From: Caulobacter vibrioides
GTDB taxonomy: Bacteria > Pseudomonadota > Alphaproteobacteria > Caulobacterales > Caulobacteraceae
Direction of reading: 5' to 3'
Length of the DNA stretch: 64,000 nt
Assembly: GCF_002310375.3 (NCBI RefSeq)
Contig: NZ_CP023315.3
Location: 1,550,001 to 1,614,000 of the forward strand
Positions 17,460 through 52,410 of this stretch are shown one piece after another (within the stretch, counting starts at the first letter, position 1; each line of letters begins with the position of its first letter). A program made the translations under genes and the position numbers. Below the pieces are notes generated by a model. The model did no database searches and had not been told where the DNA came from. It saw nothing but the letters and a program-made list of their open reading frames with translations.

Positions 17460-18233
17460 ATGGCCGACGGCGCTCTGCCCATCACATCCCTGAAGGGCAA
17501 GGTCAGCGAAGCGGAGTGGCAAGCGCGGGTCGATCTCGCCGCCCTCTATCGTCTCGTGGCCCTGCACGGGTGGGACGACATGATCTTCACCCACATCTCG
17601 GCCCGCATTCCGGGCCCTGACCACCATTTCCTGATCAATCCCTATGGGATGTTCTTCGGCGAGATCACGGCCTCGAGCCTGGTGAAGGTCGATCTCGAGG
17701 GCAACGTGATCGACAAGACGCCGTACTACATCAATCCGGCGGGTTTCACGATCCACTCGGCCGTCCATGCCGCGCGCGACGACGCCCACTATGTGATGCA
17801 CCTGCACAGCGATCAGGGCGTGGCGGTGTCGGCGCACAAGGAAGGTCTGCTGCCGCTGACGCAACATTCGCTAATCGTCTTGCCTCAACTCGCCTATCAC
17901 GATTATGAAGGCATTGCGCTCAACCTTGAGGAGCGAGAGCGCATCGTGGCTGACCTTGGCCAGAAGAAGCTGATGATGTTGCGCAACCACGGCACCCTGT
18001 CCGTGGGCGCCAGCGCGGCCGAATGCTGGTTGGGGATGTTCTTCCTGGAGCGGGCATGCGCGCAGCAGGTGATGGCGCTTTCAGTCGGACGCGACAACGT
18101 GCTGCTGGCGCCCGACGCCGCGCAGGACGAGGTTCGCAAGCAAACCGGCATGGGCATGGGCATGATCGGTGGGCTGGCCTGGCCGGGCTGCCTGCGCAAA
18201 CTGGACCGCGAGTCGCCGGGCTACGCCGACTAG
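17460..18233 (+). CDS. class II aldolase/adducin family protein
   Basis: A protein of 257 residues with start ATG after GGGAGGCCCCA. The metal-binding pattern is MHLHSDQG (His-x-His) with an acidic residue in the first half (LINPYGMFFGEITAS) and a third histidine in LRNHGTLS, as in L-fuculose-phosphate aldolase and ribulose-5-phosphate epimerase relatives. The substrate is undefined; many members annotated this way are not characterised. A strong terminator follows 23 bases after the stop. Confidence 0.9.
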   Translation: MADGALPITSLKGKVSEAEWQARVDLAALYRLVALHGWDDMIFTHISARIPGPDHHFLINPYGMFFGEITASSLVKVDLEGNVIDKTPYYINPAGFTIHSAVHAARDDAHYVMHLHSDQGVAVSAHKEGLLPLTQHSLIVLPQLAYHDYEGIALNLEERERIVADLGQKKLMMLRNHGTLSVGASAAECWLGMFFLERACAQQVMALSVGRDNVLLAPDAAQDEVRKQTGMGMGMIGGLAWPGCLRKLDRESPGYAD

Positions 18234-20265: not shown

Positions 20266-23200
20266 TGCTGTCCGACCTCTCCGTCCGTCGCCCCGTATTC
20301 GCCGCCGTCGCGGCGATCATCCTCTGCGTCATCGGCTTGGCGGCGTTCACGTCGCTGCCGATCCGCGAGCTGCCCAGTGTCGATCCGCCCGTGGTGTCGG
20401 TCTCGACCAGCTATCGCGGCGCCTCGGCCGAAGTCATCGAAGAGCGCATCACCCAGGTGATCGAGCGTCAGGTCGCCGGCATCCAGGGGATCGACCGGGT
20501 CAACAGCTCCTCGCGCGACGGCCGTTCGAACATCAGCATCACGTTCAATCTGGACCGCGATCTCGACGCGGCCGCCAATGACGTGCGCGACGCTGTCAGC
20601 CGGGTGACCAGCAACCTGCCGGATCAAGCCGATCCGCCGCAGATCGCCAAGGCCAACGCCGACGCCGCGCCGATCATCATCCTGAACCTGACCTCGACCA
20701 CGCTGAACCCGCTGCAGCTGGCCGACTACGCCGACCGCTATCTAGTCGAGCGGATGTCGACGATCGACGGCGTGGCCCAGGCCAACCTGTTCGGCGCCAA
20801 GATCTACGCGATGCGGATCTGGCTCGACGCCAACGAGATGGCCGCGCGCGGCGTCACGGTGGACGATATCGAAAGCGCCCTGAACGCCCAGAACCTGGAG
20901 CTTCCCGCCGGCTCGCTGGAAAGCGCGGCCAAGGACTTCACGATCCGCGTGGCGCGCAGCTACGCCAAGCCCGAAGACTTCGCGCGCCTGCCGTTGCGGG
21001 CCGCCAACGGCTCTGGCTACGTGCTGCGCCTGGGTGACGTCGCGCGGATCGAGGAAGGTCCGGACGAGCGTCGTCGCCTGTTCCGCGGCAATGGCGTCGA
21101 TCAGGTCGGCATTGGTCTGACCCGTCAGTCGCAAGCCAATGACGTCGCGATCTCCAAGGCCGTCCGCGCCGAGGTCGAGGTGATCAACCAGACCCTGCCG
21201 GCCGGCACCAAGATGGTGGTGGCCGTCGACAACTCGGTGTTCACCGCCGAGGCGATCCACGAGGTGTGGATCACCATGGGCCTGTCGATCGGCCTGGTGG
21301 TGCTGGTCAACCTACTGTTCCTGGGCAGCTGGCGTTCGGCGCTGATCCCGTCGATCGTCGCGCCGATCTGCATCCTCTCGACCTTCATCATCCTGGCGCC
21401 GCTGGGCTTCTCGCTGAACCTGCTGACGCTGCTGGCCCTGGTGCTGGCGGTGGGTCTGGTGGTCGACGACGCCATCGTGGTGGTCGAGAACATTCAGCGC
21501 CGGGTGGACGAGGGCGAGCCGCCGTTGGTCGCCGCCGAGCGCGGCACCCGGCAGGTGTTCTTCGCCGTTGTGGCCACCACCGTTGTCCTGGTGTCGGTGT
21601 TCGCGCCGCTGATGTTCCTGCCCGGCTATATCGGCCGCCTGTTCGTCGAGCTGGCCGTCGCCATCGCCGCCGCCGTCGCTTTCTCGGCGCTGCTGGCGCT
21701 GTCGCTGTCGCCGATGATGGCCTCGAAACTGCTGCGTCCTGCGCACGGCGAGGGTTGGCTGGCGCGACGCGTCAACAAGGCCATGGGCGCCTTGAGCGCC
21801 TCGTATCGCGCGTCGCTTGAGCAGATCCTGGGCGGATGGTCCGCGGCGATCTCCGGCGTGCTGGTGGTTCTGCTGGCGGGCTTCGCCGCCCTGCTGTTCG
21901 TCAGCCTGCCCAAGGAGCTGGTGCCGGCCGAAGACCGGGGGCGGGTGGACGTCTCGATCTCGGCGGCCGAAGGCGCCGGCTACGACTACACCTCGGCCAT
22001 CGGTCTGAAAATCGAGAAGGTGCTCGACAAGTACCGGCAGGACGGCGTTTCCGAGCGAACCATCATGACCATCCCGCGCTTCGGCGGGAACTCGTTCAAC
22101 AGCGCCAACGGCGTCGTCGCGTTGAAGCCCTGGGGCGAGCGCGAAAAGACCGCCGATGAGGTCGCTGCGGAGCTGAACAAGGAGCTCTCCAAGTTCACCA
22201 GCGTTCGCGCCGTGGCCAGCGTGCGCGGTCCCTTCCAGCGGGGCGGCGGCGGTGGCGGCGGTGGCGGCACCAACGTCGACTTCATCGCCGTCGGGAACGA
22301 CTATGTTCAGTTGGCGGGTTGGCTCAAGCCGATCCTGGCCGAGGCGCAGGACAATCCGGGCCTGGCCCGTCCGCGCCTGGACTACGAGCCGACCGCGCCG
22401 CGTCTGCTGGTGCAGATCGATCTCGACAAGGCCGCCACCCTCGGCGTCTCGGCGCAGTCGGTCGGGCGGGCGCTCGAGACCATGTTCGGGTCGCGCCGCG
22501 CGACGACCTACATCAAGAATGGCCAGGAATACGACGTCATCCTGCAGACCAATCTGGACCAGCGCCGGAGCGTCGAGGACCTGAACCGCCTGAACGTGCG
22601 CACCAGCACCGGCGCCACCGTGCCGCTGTCCACCGTGGTCACCACCGAACTCCGGGGCGACACGCCCGATCGCCCGCGCGTCGATCGCCTGCGCTCGGTC
22701 ACCCTGACCACGCAGCTGAACCCTGGCTATACGGTCGAGGACGCCGTGGCGTTCTTCAAGGACCAGGCGGCCCAGCATCCGACGCCGGGCGTCAGCATCA
22801 AGTGGGGCGGGCAGGCCAAGGACTATCTTGAAGGCTCGGGCGGCATCGCCATCGCCTTCGGCCTGGCCCTGCTGCTGGTGTTCCTGGTGCTGGCCGCGCA
22901 GTTCGAGAGCTGGATCCACCCGGCGGTCATCATGCTGACCGTGCCGCTAGCGGCGCTGGGCGGGCTGTTCGGCCTGCTGGTGATGGGCTCGACCATCAAC
23001 ACCTACAGCCAGATCGGCCTGATCATCCTGATCGGTATCGCCACCAAGAACGGCATCCTGATCGTCGAGTTCGCCAACCAGCTACGCGACGAGGGTCTGA
23101 CCGTGCGCGAGGCAGTGGTCGAGGCGGCGGCCCTGCGCCTGCGTCCGATCATCATGACCTCGGTCTCGGCCGCGATGGGCGCTCTGCCGCTGATGCTGTG

Positions 23201-41893: not shown

Positions 41894-42738
41894 GGGCGCT
41901 GGTTCTGATCGCCGCGCTGCTGGCTCCGTCGGCGGCGCTGGCGCAGCAGCAGATCCCGCTGTGGCCCAAGGGCGCGCCGGGTTTCGAGAGTCGGAAGGCG
42001 ATCCCGGAACAGGCGGCCGACTACTGGGCCAAGAGCATCAACAACCCGTCCATCACCGCCTATCTGCCGCCCAAGGCGCTCGCCACCGGCGCCGCCGTGA
42101 TCGTGCTGCCGGGCGGTGGGCATCGAATGCTGGTCATCCATCCCGAGGGCACGGACGTGGCCAAGGTGATGAATCCCAAGGGCGTGGCGGTCTTTGTCCT
42201 GAAGTATCGACTCTTCCGGGAAGAGGGCTCGCCCTACACGATCGATCACGCCCGCCAGGACGCTGTCCGCGCCGTGCGCCATGTCCGCGCGCACGCGGCC
42301 GAGTTCGGCGTCGATCCCAAGCGCATCGGCCTGATGGGGTTCTCGGGCGGCGGTGAGGTCGTGAATCTCGCGGTTTATGAGGGGGCGGCCAAGGATCCCA
42401 AGGTCGACGCCGTCGATGAGGTCAGCGGTCGTCCCGACTTTCAGGTGCTGATCTATCCTGGCCCTCTGGGGCTGCCCGAGACGATCCCCGCCAATACGCC
42501 GCCCGCCTTCATCCTGGCGGCGGACGACGACGAATGCTGCTCCGCGCCACCGGTGGAATTGCTGGCCAAGTTCCGGGCCGCCAAGGTTCCGGTGGAGTTC
42601 CACCTGTTCCAGTCGGGCGGTCACGCCTTCAACATGGGGTTCCGAACCGACAAGGCCGCAATCAAGGCCTGGCCGGATCGGCTGCGCGACTGGCTGGCCG
42701 ACAATGGTTGGCTGAAGGGGCCAGGCCCGTCTAGCTGA
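41890..42738 (+). CDS. exported alpha/beta hydrolase (esterase)
   Basis: A protein of 282 residues, GTG start overlapping the previous stop. Signal peptide MRALVLIAALLAPSAALAQQ. Oxyanion region VIVLPGGGHRML, nucleophile Ser in GLMGFSGGGEVV, acid in ILAADDDECC and catalytic His in QSGGHAFNMG fit the acetyl-esterase/pectin-acetylesterase-like group. It probably removes acyl groups from sugars in the periplasm, in line with its two operon partners. It overlaps the convergent peptidase gene by eight bases. Confidence 0.88.
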   Translation: MRALVLIAALLAPSAALAQQQIPLWPKGAPGFESRKAIPEQAADYWAKSINNPSITAYLPPKALATGAAVIVLPGGGHRMLVIHPEGTDVAKVMNPKGVAVFVLKYRLFREEGSPYTIDHARQDAVRAVRHVRAHAAEFGVDPKRIGLMGFSGGGEVVNLAVYEGAAKDPKVDAVDEVSGRPDFQVLIYPGPLGLPETIPANTPPAFILAADDDECCSAPPVELLAKFRAAKVPVEFHLFQSGGHAFNMGFRTDKAAIKAWPDRLRDWLADNGWLKGPGPSS

Positions 42739-49463: not shown

Positions 49464-50212
49464 TCAGCGGTGCTTGTTGTGCTGGGCGACTTCGTCCGGC
49501 GTGATGTCGATCAGGTCCGGGACGGCCGCGTTGTAGGCGGGCGTATGGTTCAGATCCATCACCACGCTGCGGTGGCCCGTCCAGACCATGTGCACAGCCA
49601 CATAAAGCACGATGGCCAGGCCGACGAAGCCGATCCAGCGGTGCTTGTGCAGCAGGTTGGCGATGGCCGTGGCGGCAACGCCCATCAGGATGATCGACAG
49701 CAGCAGGCCGAAAATCAGGATGCTCGGATGCTCGGATGCTCGCGGGCCGCGCCGGCGACGGCCAGGACGTTGTCCAGCGACATCGAGACGTCGGCGATCA
49801 GCACCTGCAGGAACGCGGCCTTGAAGGTCTTGTTCGGACGCGCGCGCGGCTCGGTGCTGGGATCATCGTCGATCATGGCCATGGCGTCGGCCTCGTCGTG
49901 CGTGCTCTGCTCACGCAGCTCGCGCCACATCTTCCAGCAGACCCACAGCAGCAGGAAACCGCCCGCCAGCAGGAGCCCCACGACGCCGAGCAGCCAAGTG
50001 GTGATCAGGGCGAAGGTGATCCGCAGCACGACCGCCGCGCCCAGGCCATAGAGAATGACCTTCTTGCGCTCCTTGGCGGGCAAGCCGCCGGCCGCCAGGC
50101 CCACGGCCACGGCGTTGTCGCCGGCCAGGACGAGGTCGATCATCAGGACTTGAAGCAGGGCGGTCAGCGGGCCTTGGAAGGCGCCGAACTGGGCGATCAG
50201 GGCGTCGAACAT
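49464..50212 (-). pseudogene. TerC-family membrane protein, frameshifted by an 8-bp tandem repeat
   Basis: The first part (MFDALIAQFGAFQGPLTALLQ...) has the TerC hallmarks LMIDLVLAGDNAVAVGLAAG and IADVSMSLDNVLAVAGAARE with two conserved Asp-containing helices, as in manganese exporters of the YjbE type. After AREHPSI the frame stops; the remainder (ATAIANLLHKHRWIGFVGLA ...) continues in another frame. The break is exactly at three tandem copies of GGATGCTC (49718-49741). Removing one copy restores a single 246-codon frame. It may be a pseudogene or a slippage-switchable gene; in this state the protein loses its last helices. Confidence 0.85.
49718..49741. repeat. tandem repeat, three copies of GGATGCTC
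   Basis: Three perfect, adjacent 8-base units inside the TerC-family gene. Because eight is not a multiple of three, gain or loss of one unit switches the reading frame. Two units give an intact frame. Confidence 0.95.
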
Positions 50213-50283: not shown

Positions 50284-50318
50284 AGAGCCCCAGATCCTGG
50301 GCTCTGGGGCTCTGGGGT
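50284..50318 (-). terminator. terminator of the histidine-rich lipoprotein gene
   Basis: A perfect 11-bp stem AGAGCCCCAGA / TCTGGGGCTCT (50284-50294 and 50303-50313) with an 8-base loop; on the minus strand it is followed by TTTCTATT. It separates the lipoprotein transcript from the TerC-family gene. A second partial CTCTGGGG copy lies beside it. Confidence 0.8.
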
Positions 50319-50335: not shown

Positions 50336-52303
50336 CTAGTGGTGAGCGTGCTCAAGTTCCTTTTTGGGCGCGTCGTGGTGACCGTGGCCATGGTCTTCGT
50401 GATGGCCGTGGTCATCGTGCCCGTGGCCGCCGTGACCATGAGCGTCGTGCCCATGATCGTCATGGCCGTGTCCATGGTCATCATGGCCGTGGCCGTGAGC
50501 ATCGCCATGGCCATGACCATGATCTTCGGCATGGCTGGCCGGGGTCACATGGGCGGTGTGCTCAGCGTGGGCGTGATGGGCGCCATGGTCGTGGCCATGG
50601 GCGTGATCGTCATGGCCATGCGCATGATCATCGTGACCATGCCCATGATCGTCATGGGCGCCGTGGCCATGCTCGTCGTGGCCATGGGCGTGGTCATCGT
50701 GCCCGTGAGCAGCCTCGCGACCATGATGGTCGTCGTGGCTCGCGTTGGTCGCAGCCACCATTGGGTTCACGTACGAAACGTGCTCAGCCGGGGCGTGCGG
50801 TTCAGGGTGGGCGTGGGCGTGAAGATCCGCGCCGTGCCCGTGATCGTCATGACCGTGGGCGTCATGGCCATGATCATCGTGGCCATGGCCGTGGTCGTCA
50901 TGGCCGTGGTGGTCGTCATGGCCATGCCCGTGGTCGTGGTGATCGTCATGGTGCGCCACGGCCGAAGCCGCGACCGCGCCGGCCGCCGCGCCGCCAGCTG
51001 CGGCGAGGAACGGATTGACGTGCGATACGTGCGTGCTGGCCGCAGGCGTGTCGAACTCCATCTCGTTGCGGCCATAGTCCGTCAGCGTGCGGTATTTCCG
51101 CTGGCTCTCGGCCTTGCGGCGCGAGGATGCGACGCTGCGCGAAACACCCACCAGGATGATCAGCGCCAGCAGCACCAGAGCCGCGCCCAGCAGGGTCTTG
51201 ATCGGCGTCGGGCCAAGGCCGGGCAGGGAGATCGAGCCGTTCAGCGCGCCCAGATCCAGCTTGTCCATGCCCTTCTTGGCGGTTTCCGGCAGCGCGGCGA
51301 CGCGCTTGCTGATCTCGCCCAGCGAGAAGCCTTGCGGCTCCTTGGCGCCGGTCATCTCGACGCCGAACTCCGACTTCAGTTCGCCCTTGGCTTCCGGACC
51401 CGGCTGCACCTGCCAGGCGAAGGTGGTCGGCTCGCCCGGCTTGACGACGGCGGTCTGACGACCGTTCGGGGTGATTTCATAGCCCTCGCCCTGCAGTTCG
51501 GCGTAGGCGCTGGTCTTCTTGGCGGCCTTGGTCAAGCCGAGCTTGGCGGCTTCCTTCTGGATCATCTCGCCCAGGGTGGCGGGCAGCGAGAGGGTCACCT
51601 GGCCGGGCTGGCCCTTGCCCAGGCTTTCTCCCGTCGCCAGCACGGCGCCGTTGGTGGCGGCCGGGGCGACGGCGGCCTGCAGCTGCTCGAGCTTGGTCGC
51701 CGGCTTGGCCGCCGCAGGCGCGGTGGCGGCGACGACGGGCGGCTTCGCCAGCGGCGCGGTCGGCAGGGCCGGTTGCGCAGCCTTCACGGGCGCCGGAGCC
51801 GGCGCGACCGTCTTCGGCGTCACGGGCTTCACGACGGCCACGGTCGCAGGCTTGGCGACAGGCTTCGCCGGCGCGGCCGCGCCGTGCGTCTGCATCGTCG
51901 CATGAACGCGGCGCGGCGGAGCCGACGCGGCGTGGCTCGAGCCCTTGGGGTTGGCGATGGGGCGCATGGCCGTGACCAGCGTGCCGTCCGGACGGCGCCA
52001 GGTCTTCAGATGCGCGTTGTGGCTTGGCGGCGGCGGGGGCGGGGGACGCACGGCGTCCGCACGGGCTTGCGCCTGGGCTTGCGTGGACGCGCTGGCGGTC
52101 GGCCCGCCAAGCAGGCCGTCCTGGGCTTGGCCGGCGCTGGGCGGCGGCGGCGCGCCCATCAGCTCCGGCGGCGTCGACGCATTCTGCTGCGGGCTTGGCG
52201 GCGGCGCCGAGGCGACAGGATCGCCAGCACTACAGCCCGCGAGCGCGAGAACGCCAACCGCGGCGGTCGCCAAGGCGGCATGGCGTACATTACGTCCAAA
52301 CAT
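50336..52303 (-). CDS. lipoprotein with transmembrane helix and long histidine-rich tail
   Basis: A protein of 655 residues. The leader NVRHAALATAAVGVLALAGC ends in a lipobox; then a Pro/Ala-rich stretch to about residue 180, a beta-rich domain (VTLSLPATLGEMIQKEAAKL ... TTFAWQVQPGPEAKGELKSE) to about 330, a helix TLLGAALVLLALIILVGVSR near 370-390 followed by SSRRKAESQRKYR, and a tail of about 205 residues with about 75 His in HDDHGHGH-type repeats. The charge pattern puts the tail in the cytoplasm. It should bind Zn, Ni, Co or Mn. It lies upstream of a TerC-family gene on the same strand. I know no family with this layout. Confidence 0.82.
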   Translation of the reverse strand: MFGRNVRHAALATAAVGVLALAGCSAGDPVASAPPPSPQQNASTPPELMGAPPPPSAGQAQDGLLGGPTASASTQAQAQARADAVRPPPPPPPSHNAHLKTWRRPDGTLVTAMRPIANPKGSSHAASAPPRRVHATMQTHGAAAPAKPVAKPATVAVVKPVTPKTVAPAPAPVKAAQPALPTAPLAKPPVVAATAPAAAKPATKLEQLQAAVAPAATNGAVLATGESLGKGQPGQVTLSLPATLGEMIQKEAAKLGLTKAAKKTSAYAELQGEGYEITPNGRQTAVVKPGEPTTFAWQVQPGPEAKGELKSEFGVEMTGAKEPQGFSLGEISKRVAALPETAKKGMDKLDLGALNGSISLPGLGPTPIKTLLGAALVLLALIILVGVSRSVASSRRKAESQRKYRTLTDYGRNEMEFDTPAASTHVSHVNPFLAAAGGAAAGAVAASAVAHHDDHHDHGHGHDDHHGHDDHGHGHDDHGHDAHGHDDHGHGADLHAHAHPEPHAPAEHVSYVNPMVAATNASHDDHHGREAAHGHDDHAHGHDEHGHGAHDDHGHGHDDHAHGHDDHAHGHDHGAHHAHAEHTAHVTPASHAEDHGHGHGDAHGHGHDDHGHGHDDHGHDAHGHGGHGHDDHGHHEDHGHGHHDAPKKELEHAHH

Positions 52304-52410
52304 CGGGTCCCCCGATCCCATGTCAGATTCCTCCGCGGAGCAGCGCTCGCGGACCACTGTTCGCAAGAAGAGCACGAGCTTGCGACGAAATCAAAACGGT
52401 TAAGAGAGAT

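Follow-up and report, generated by a model that had tools for sequence, protein, structure and literature searches.

An extra octanucleotide unit breaks the frame of a conserved YjbE-type terC gene in Caulobacter vibrioides

The window analyzed here is a 64,000-nucleotide stretch of Caulobacter vibrioides DNA, covering 1.55–1.61 Mb of a 4.14-Mb single-contig genome. It contains, on the minus strand, a gene for a TerC-type protein that is interrupted by a short tandem repeat (Table 1). Frame 0 and frame 2 of its 749-base span each hold one half of a single TerC. Frame 0 reads from MFDALIAQFG... to ...AREHPSIRAS and a stop after 165 codons, and frame 2 carries ...SILIFGLLLSIILMGVAATAIANLLHKHRW...NKHR and a stop. 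The first piece of the C-terminal part that starts with ATG is 49464–49685 and would encode 73 amino acids.

Table 1 Features of the terC locus, numbered from the first base of the window
Feature	Position	Strand	Basis or remark
terC/yjbE-type gene, frameshifted	49464..50212	-	Frame comparison; PF03741 and TIGR03717 matches; intact orthologs up to 97% identical
Encoded open reading frame, truncated 165-aa TerC ending ...AREHPSIRAS	49715..50212	-	
C-terminal TerC part, out of frame	49464..49717	-	Weak TerC/TIGR03717 matches; 99% match to query residues 156-246
Repeat (GGATGCTC)3 + G	49718..49742	.	(GAGCATCC)3 in coding sense; +8 bases, frame shifted
Terminator-like hairpin AGAGCCCCAGA...TCTGGGGCTCT	50284..50313	-	11-pair stem, T-rich tail; consensus match only

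The N-terminal 165 residues match PF03741 with 106.6 bits (cut-off 27.8; 1.6e-30) and the YjbE subfamily model TIGR03717 with 160.5 bits, above its cut-off of 134.8, and the C-terminal part gives weak matches to the last columns of both models. The acidic motifs LAGDN and MSLDN are both found in the interrupted protein. By sequence, the gene is thus a member of the TerC family and its YjbE subfamily, which is related to Bacillus MeeF/MeeY and Alx and with which it shares both curated cut-off passes and the acidic motifs. MeeF and MeeY are TerC proteins that help load manganese into exported enzymes, a role in Mn export and exoenzyme metalation, and loss of Bacillus YjbE leaves colony growth unaffected (PMC10550928). 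The terC transcript of C. crescentus is raised under copper stress (PMC8224329), and that gene may differ from the ortholog considered here. No solved structure of a close relative was found by sequence. A distant second TerC relative (25% identity) is encoded at 375 kb of the same genome in an open frame of 326 aa, and some TerC-type function may therefore persist.

The hairpin of Table 1 lies between terC and an upstream His-rich gene, which suggests a separate transcription start for terC. No riboswitch was detected upstream of terC at the curated cut-offs of Rfam. The sole weak Rfam match there, to an animal microRNA family, was taken as chance. The upstream neighbor (50336–52375, minus strand) encodes a 679-aa protein with a very long His/Asp/Gly-rich tail (HGHDDHGHGHDDH...), which is possibly metal-binding; the protein has no Pfam match. 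Its DNA is full of imperfect 15–24-base repeats, and indels of 24, 12, 9, 9 and 3 bases set it apart from the sister genome. As all of these are in frame, this neighbor varies in length without frame loss.

On the plus strand, GGATGCTC is repeated three times in tandem at 49718–49741, and the perfect period continues to 49742 (3.12 copies). The repeat falls around codons 158–165 of terC, inside the coding sequence, and its unit is not divisible by three. With three units, the in silico translation of terC stops at codon 166, after 165 amino acids. With two units the gene is 741 bases long and forms one frame of 246 codons (246 aa); five units also put it back in frame, and one or four do not. 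An earlier note on this DNA had described exactly this arrangement, with three 8-bp copies, a break at the repeat between TerC halves in different frames, and a single 246-codon frame once one copy is removed, and our recomputation agrees with it throughout.

Within the 64 kb window, the terC tract is the sole perfect period-8 run with at least three copies. No run of this kind was present in 300 kb of the same genome (fifteen 20-kb samples), nor in 3 Mb of third-order Markov simulation, in which chance alone readily produced two-copy octamers (119 of them). Because such runs are absent from both the genomic sample and the simulation, the three-copy octamer at terC is not explained by chance. 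Two other short perfect repeats were seen in the window, GGCATG x3 at 18147–18164 and GGCGGCGGT x2.7 at 22245–22268. The units of both are multiples of three and therefore do not break a frame.

The consequence for the protein was considered on an AlphaFold model of an intact ortholog, which is of moderate confidence (mean pLDDT 72) and predicts six long helices at residues 15–41, 46–78, 80–114, 130–155, 160–187 and 189–217. The protein encoded in the window ends at residue 165, and helices 160–187 and 189–217, the last two of the six, are lost. In contrast to the TerC/YjbE family, the window's gene thus lacks the complete helix set in one reading frame, its frame ending after helix 4. A 30-sequence alignment places 11 invariant positions after the break (G166, L167, S170, M174, G175, A178, L185, G195, V202, M206 and G210). 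The truncated TerC is very probably inactive, because the last two predicted helices are missing; the gene is a TerC by sequence, yet its product would fail as a working TerC protein.

Of 149 Caulobacteraceae genomes, 116 have a match to terC, which is unbroken in all but the window genome and G076. The latter has a TAG stop inside the match, and only the window genome has the gene split into two frames. Nearly every Caulobacter genome searched has an intact ortholog, the best being up to 97% identical. The repeat site has the two-unit length, with no perfect repeat, in 27/27 Caulobacter orthologs as well as in about 15 further orthologs from Caulobacterales and other alphaproteobacteria in a separate collection. 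Every inspected Caulobacter or Phenylobacterium ortholog has the two-unit length, and at the species level no length variation was found at this site among the inspected orthologs. The two closest sisters, G001 and G180, encode TerC proteins with 97% identity to that of the window, and G001 shares about 91% DNA identity over the region. Both carry an imperfect pair, one in the GAGCATCC-GGGCATCC form and one in the GAGCATCC-GGGTATCC form: G001 reads GAGCATCCGGGCATCC and G180 reads GAGCATCCGGGTATCC. Aligned to G001, the window has an 8-base insertion at the repeat. The doubled octamer GAGCATCCGAGCATCC is present in one of 61 Caulobacter genomes, the window's own, at the terC site only, and was not found in the 60 others.

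Apart from the extra unit, the gene is not decayed. With that unit left out, the window-specific codon changes are six synonymous and three non-synonymous when both sisters are used, and nine synonymous and three non-synonymous in one outgroup scheme. The non-synonymous changes are L9F, G161S and I207V, all three conservative. Position 161 is occupied by G, A, T, V, F, Y and N, among others, in relatives, and because of this variability a serine there is probably tolerated in itself. Since the remainder of the gene is undecayed, the frameshift looks recent. The alignment to G001 covers about 53 kb. Its other indels of at least four bases, where inspected, lie outside genes or at gene ends (14.6, 28.5 and 42.7 kb) or are multiples of three; no further frame-breaking tandem duplication was recognized. 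A second 8-base insertion relative to G001 (CCAGGCCC, 42721–42728) sits at the 3′ end of a plus-strand gene in convergent orientation to one on the minus strand, and appears to alter only the last few codons of its gene.

The likely route to the present state has three steps. A change of codon 161 from GGC to AGC (Gly161Ser) would have made a perfect two-copy octamer out of the ancestral GAGCATCC-GGGCATCC. Slipped-strand mispairing at replication would then have added a third 8-bp unit, with which the frame shifts, translation ends at codon 166 and two predicted helices are lost. The species difference at codon 161 and the extra unit are both seen in the alignments; we infer the order of the two events from the relatives, and the form of the added unit points to slippage. 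Substitution first and gain of 8 bases second is the simplest path, because the relatives keep the two-unit length without a perfect repeat and GAGCATCCGAGCATCC occurs in the window genome only. The reverse order is possible, and the substitution would then have to strike an already expanded repeat.

Low-copy repeats that change by one unit have been described in other bacteria. Mutations that add or remove a single unit concentrate in the (CTGG)3 tract of lacI, both in E. coli and in Pseudomonas putida (PMC3485313), an example showing that three tandem units suffice for a mutational hotspot. Like terC, lacI has three tandem units in its coding sequence, and gain or loss of a single one breaks the frame; the units are of 4 bp in lacI and 8 bp in terC, and terC is in frame with two copies. 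A tetranucleotide tract in S. aureus icaC reversibly gains and loses units, with truncation of the encoded membrane protein (PMC4117637). In both icaC and terC the repeat is of low copy number and lies in a gene for a membrane protein, where a one-unit change truncates the product and disrupts its C-terminal membrane part. However, reversibility and variation among isolates are established for icaC, whereas the terC repeat is absent from relatives and known from one genome sequence. As the gene would return to frame on losing one unit, rare and slow reversion would be expected at terC through slippage, as in lacI and icaC. Over the first 2 Mb of the genome the GC skew is mostly positive, and beyond that mostly negative, which suggests that terC is transcribed head-on to the replication fork. 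For lacI of P. putida, insertions were the prevailing change in the head-on orientation (PMC3485313); the gain at terC, a single event, would be only compatible with such a bias.

The earlier note had raised phase variation as a reading of the repeat. A contingency locus is more than a slippage hotspot, being a selected tract that varies among relatives, and phase-variable genes usually encode surface antigens, which TerC is not. For terC to be such a locus, change between two and three units would have to act as an on/off control of the protein, at a rate that is useful and selected for. The tract does have a non-triplet tandem unit in coding sequence that breaks the gene midway, and the off-state gene is undecayed, as is also expected of a switching gene. 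A low-copy tract can act in this way, as in icaC, where culture yielded about 140 variant reads among 88,000 (PMC4117637). Across the species compared, however, there is no conserved tract with varying copy number: even two perfect copies are absent from the other 60 Caulobacter genomes, the length at the site is constant in the inspected orthologs, and three units are short beside the 12–15 of the octanucleotide tracts near the Haemophilus hmw adhesin genes (PMC2651432). Relatives without the repeat and without length variation are what the earlier note had itself named as removing the switching idea, and at the species level the comparison does not support it. A genuine phase-variable locus is accordingly improbable. 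The same small chance is given to a newborn on/off switch for a metal-handling TerC, reversible at a slow rate, in which substitution and then slippage would have produced mixed two- and three-unit populations. Nothing shows that the locus is kept as a switch, and phase variation of terC is unproven and unlikely. Searches of open-access literature found no report on the repeat or on phase variation of a Caulobacter TerC gene. A search for a mutL 6-bp repeat likewise found no papers.

The three-unit state rests on one assembly, and laboratory passage can fix mutations of this type, so we considered an assembly error or a minor or culture-derived variant in the reference, the wild strain having two units. 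This is also unlikely. The genome is one contig and 99.99% complete, reads easily span a tract of 24 bp, sequencing errors do not typically take the form of an exact 8-bp duplication, and the 53 kb aligned to the sister revealed no comparable duplication. Less probable still is a split protein in which both pieces work, through re-initiation past the stop or ribosomal frameshifting at the repeat. The C-terminal frame is open and its sequence conserved; however, a −1 shift would be required, and inspection of the repeat by eye shows no X-XXY-YYZ slippery site. About 30 bases past the stop, at 49685, comes the first in-frame ATG, without an evident ribosome-binding site, and a piece starting there misses part of helix 160–187. 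With neither a slippery site nor a good start visible, programmed frameshifting and re-initiation were rejected.

Very likely, therefore, slippage has recently shifted the frame of a conserved gene for a YjbE-type TerC membrane protein, at the level of the strain or lineage. The earlier note had offered recent inactivating slippage as its alternative, and it is this alternative that the two-unit length in all inspected orthologs, the perfect repeat in 1 of 61 genomes and the undecayed gene favor. The break in terC is real and an ordinary strain-level event, by which phase variation in Caulobacter is not established. It cleanly illustrates, in a natural case, how a single substitution can create a slippage-prone repeat and lead to a broken conserved gene, and in work on metal stress the strain should be treated as lacking a YjbE-type TerC, unless resequencing proves otherwise.
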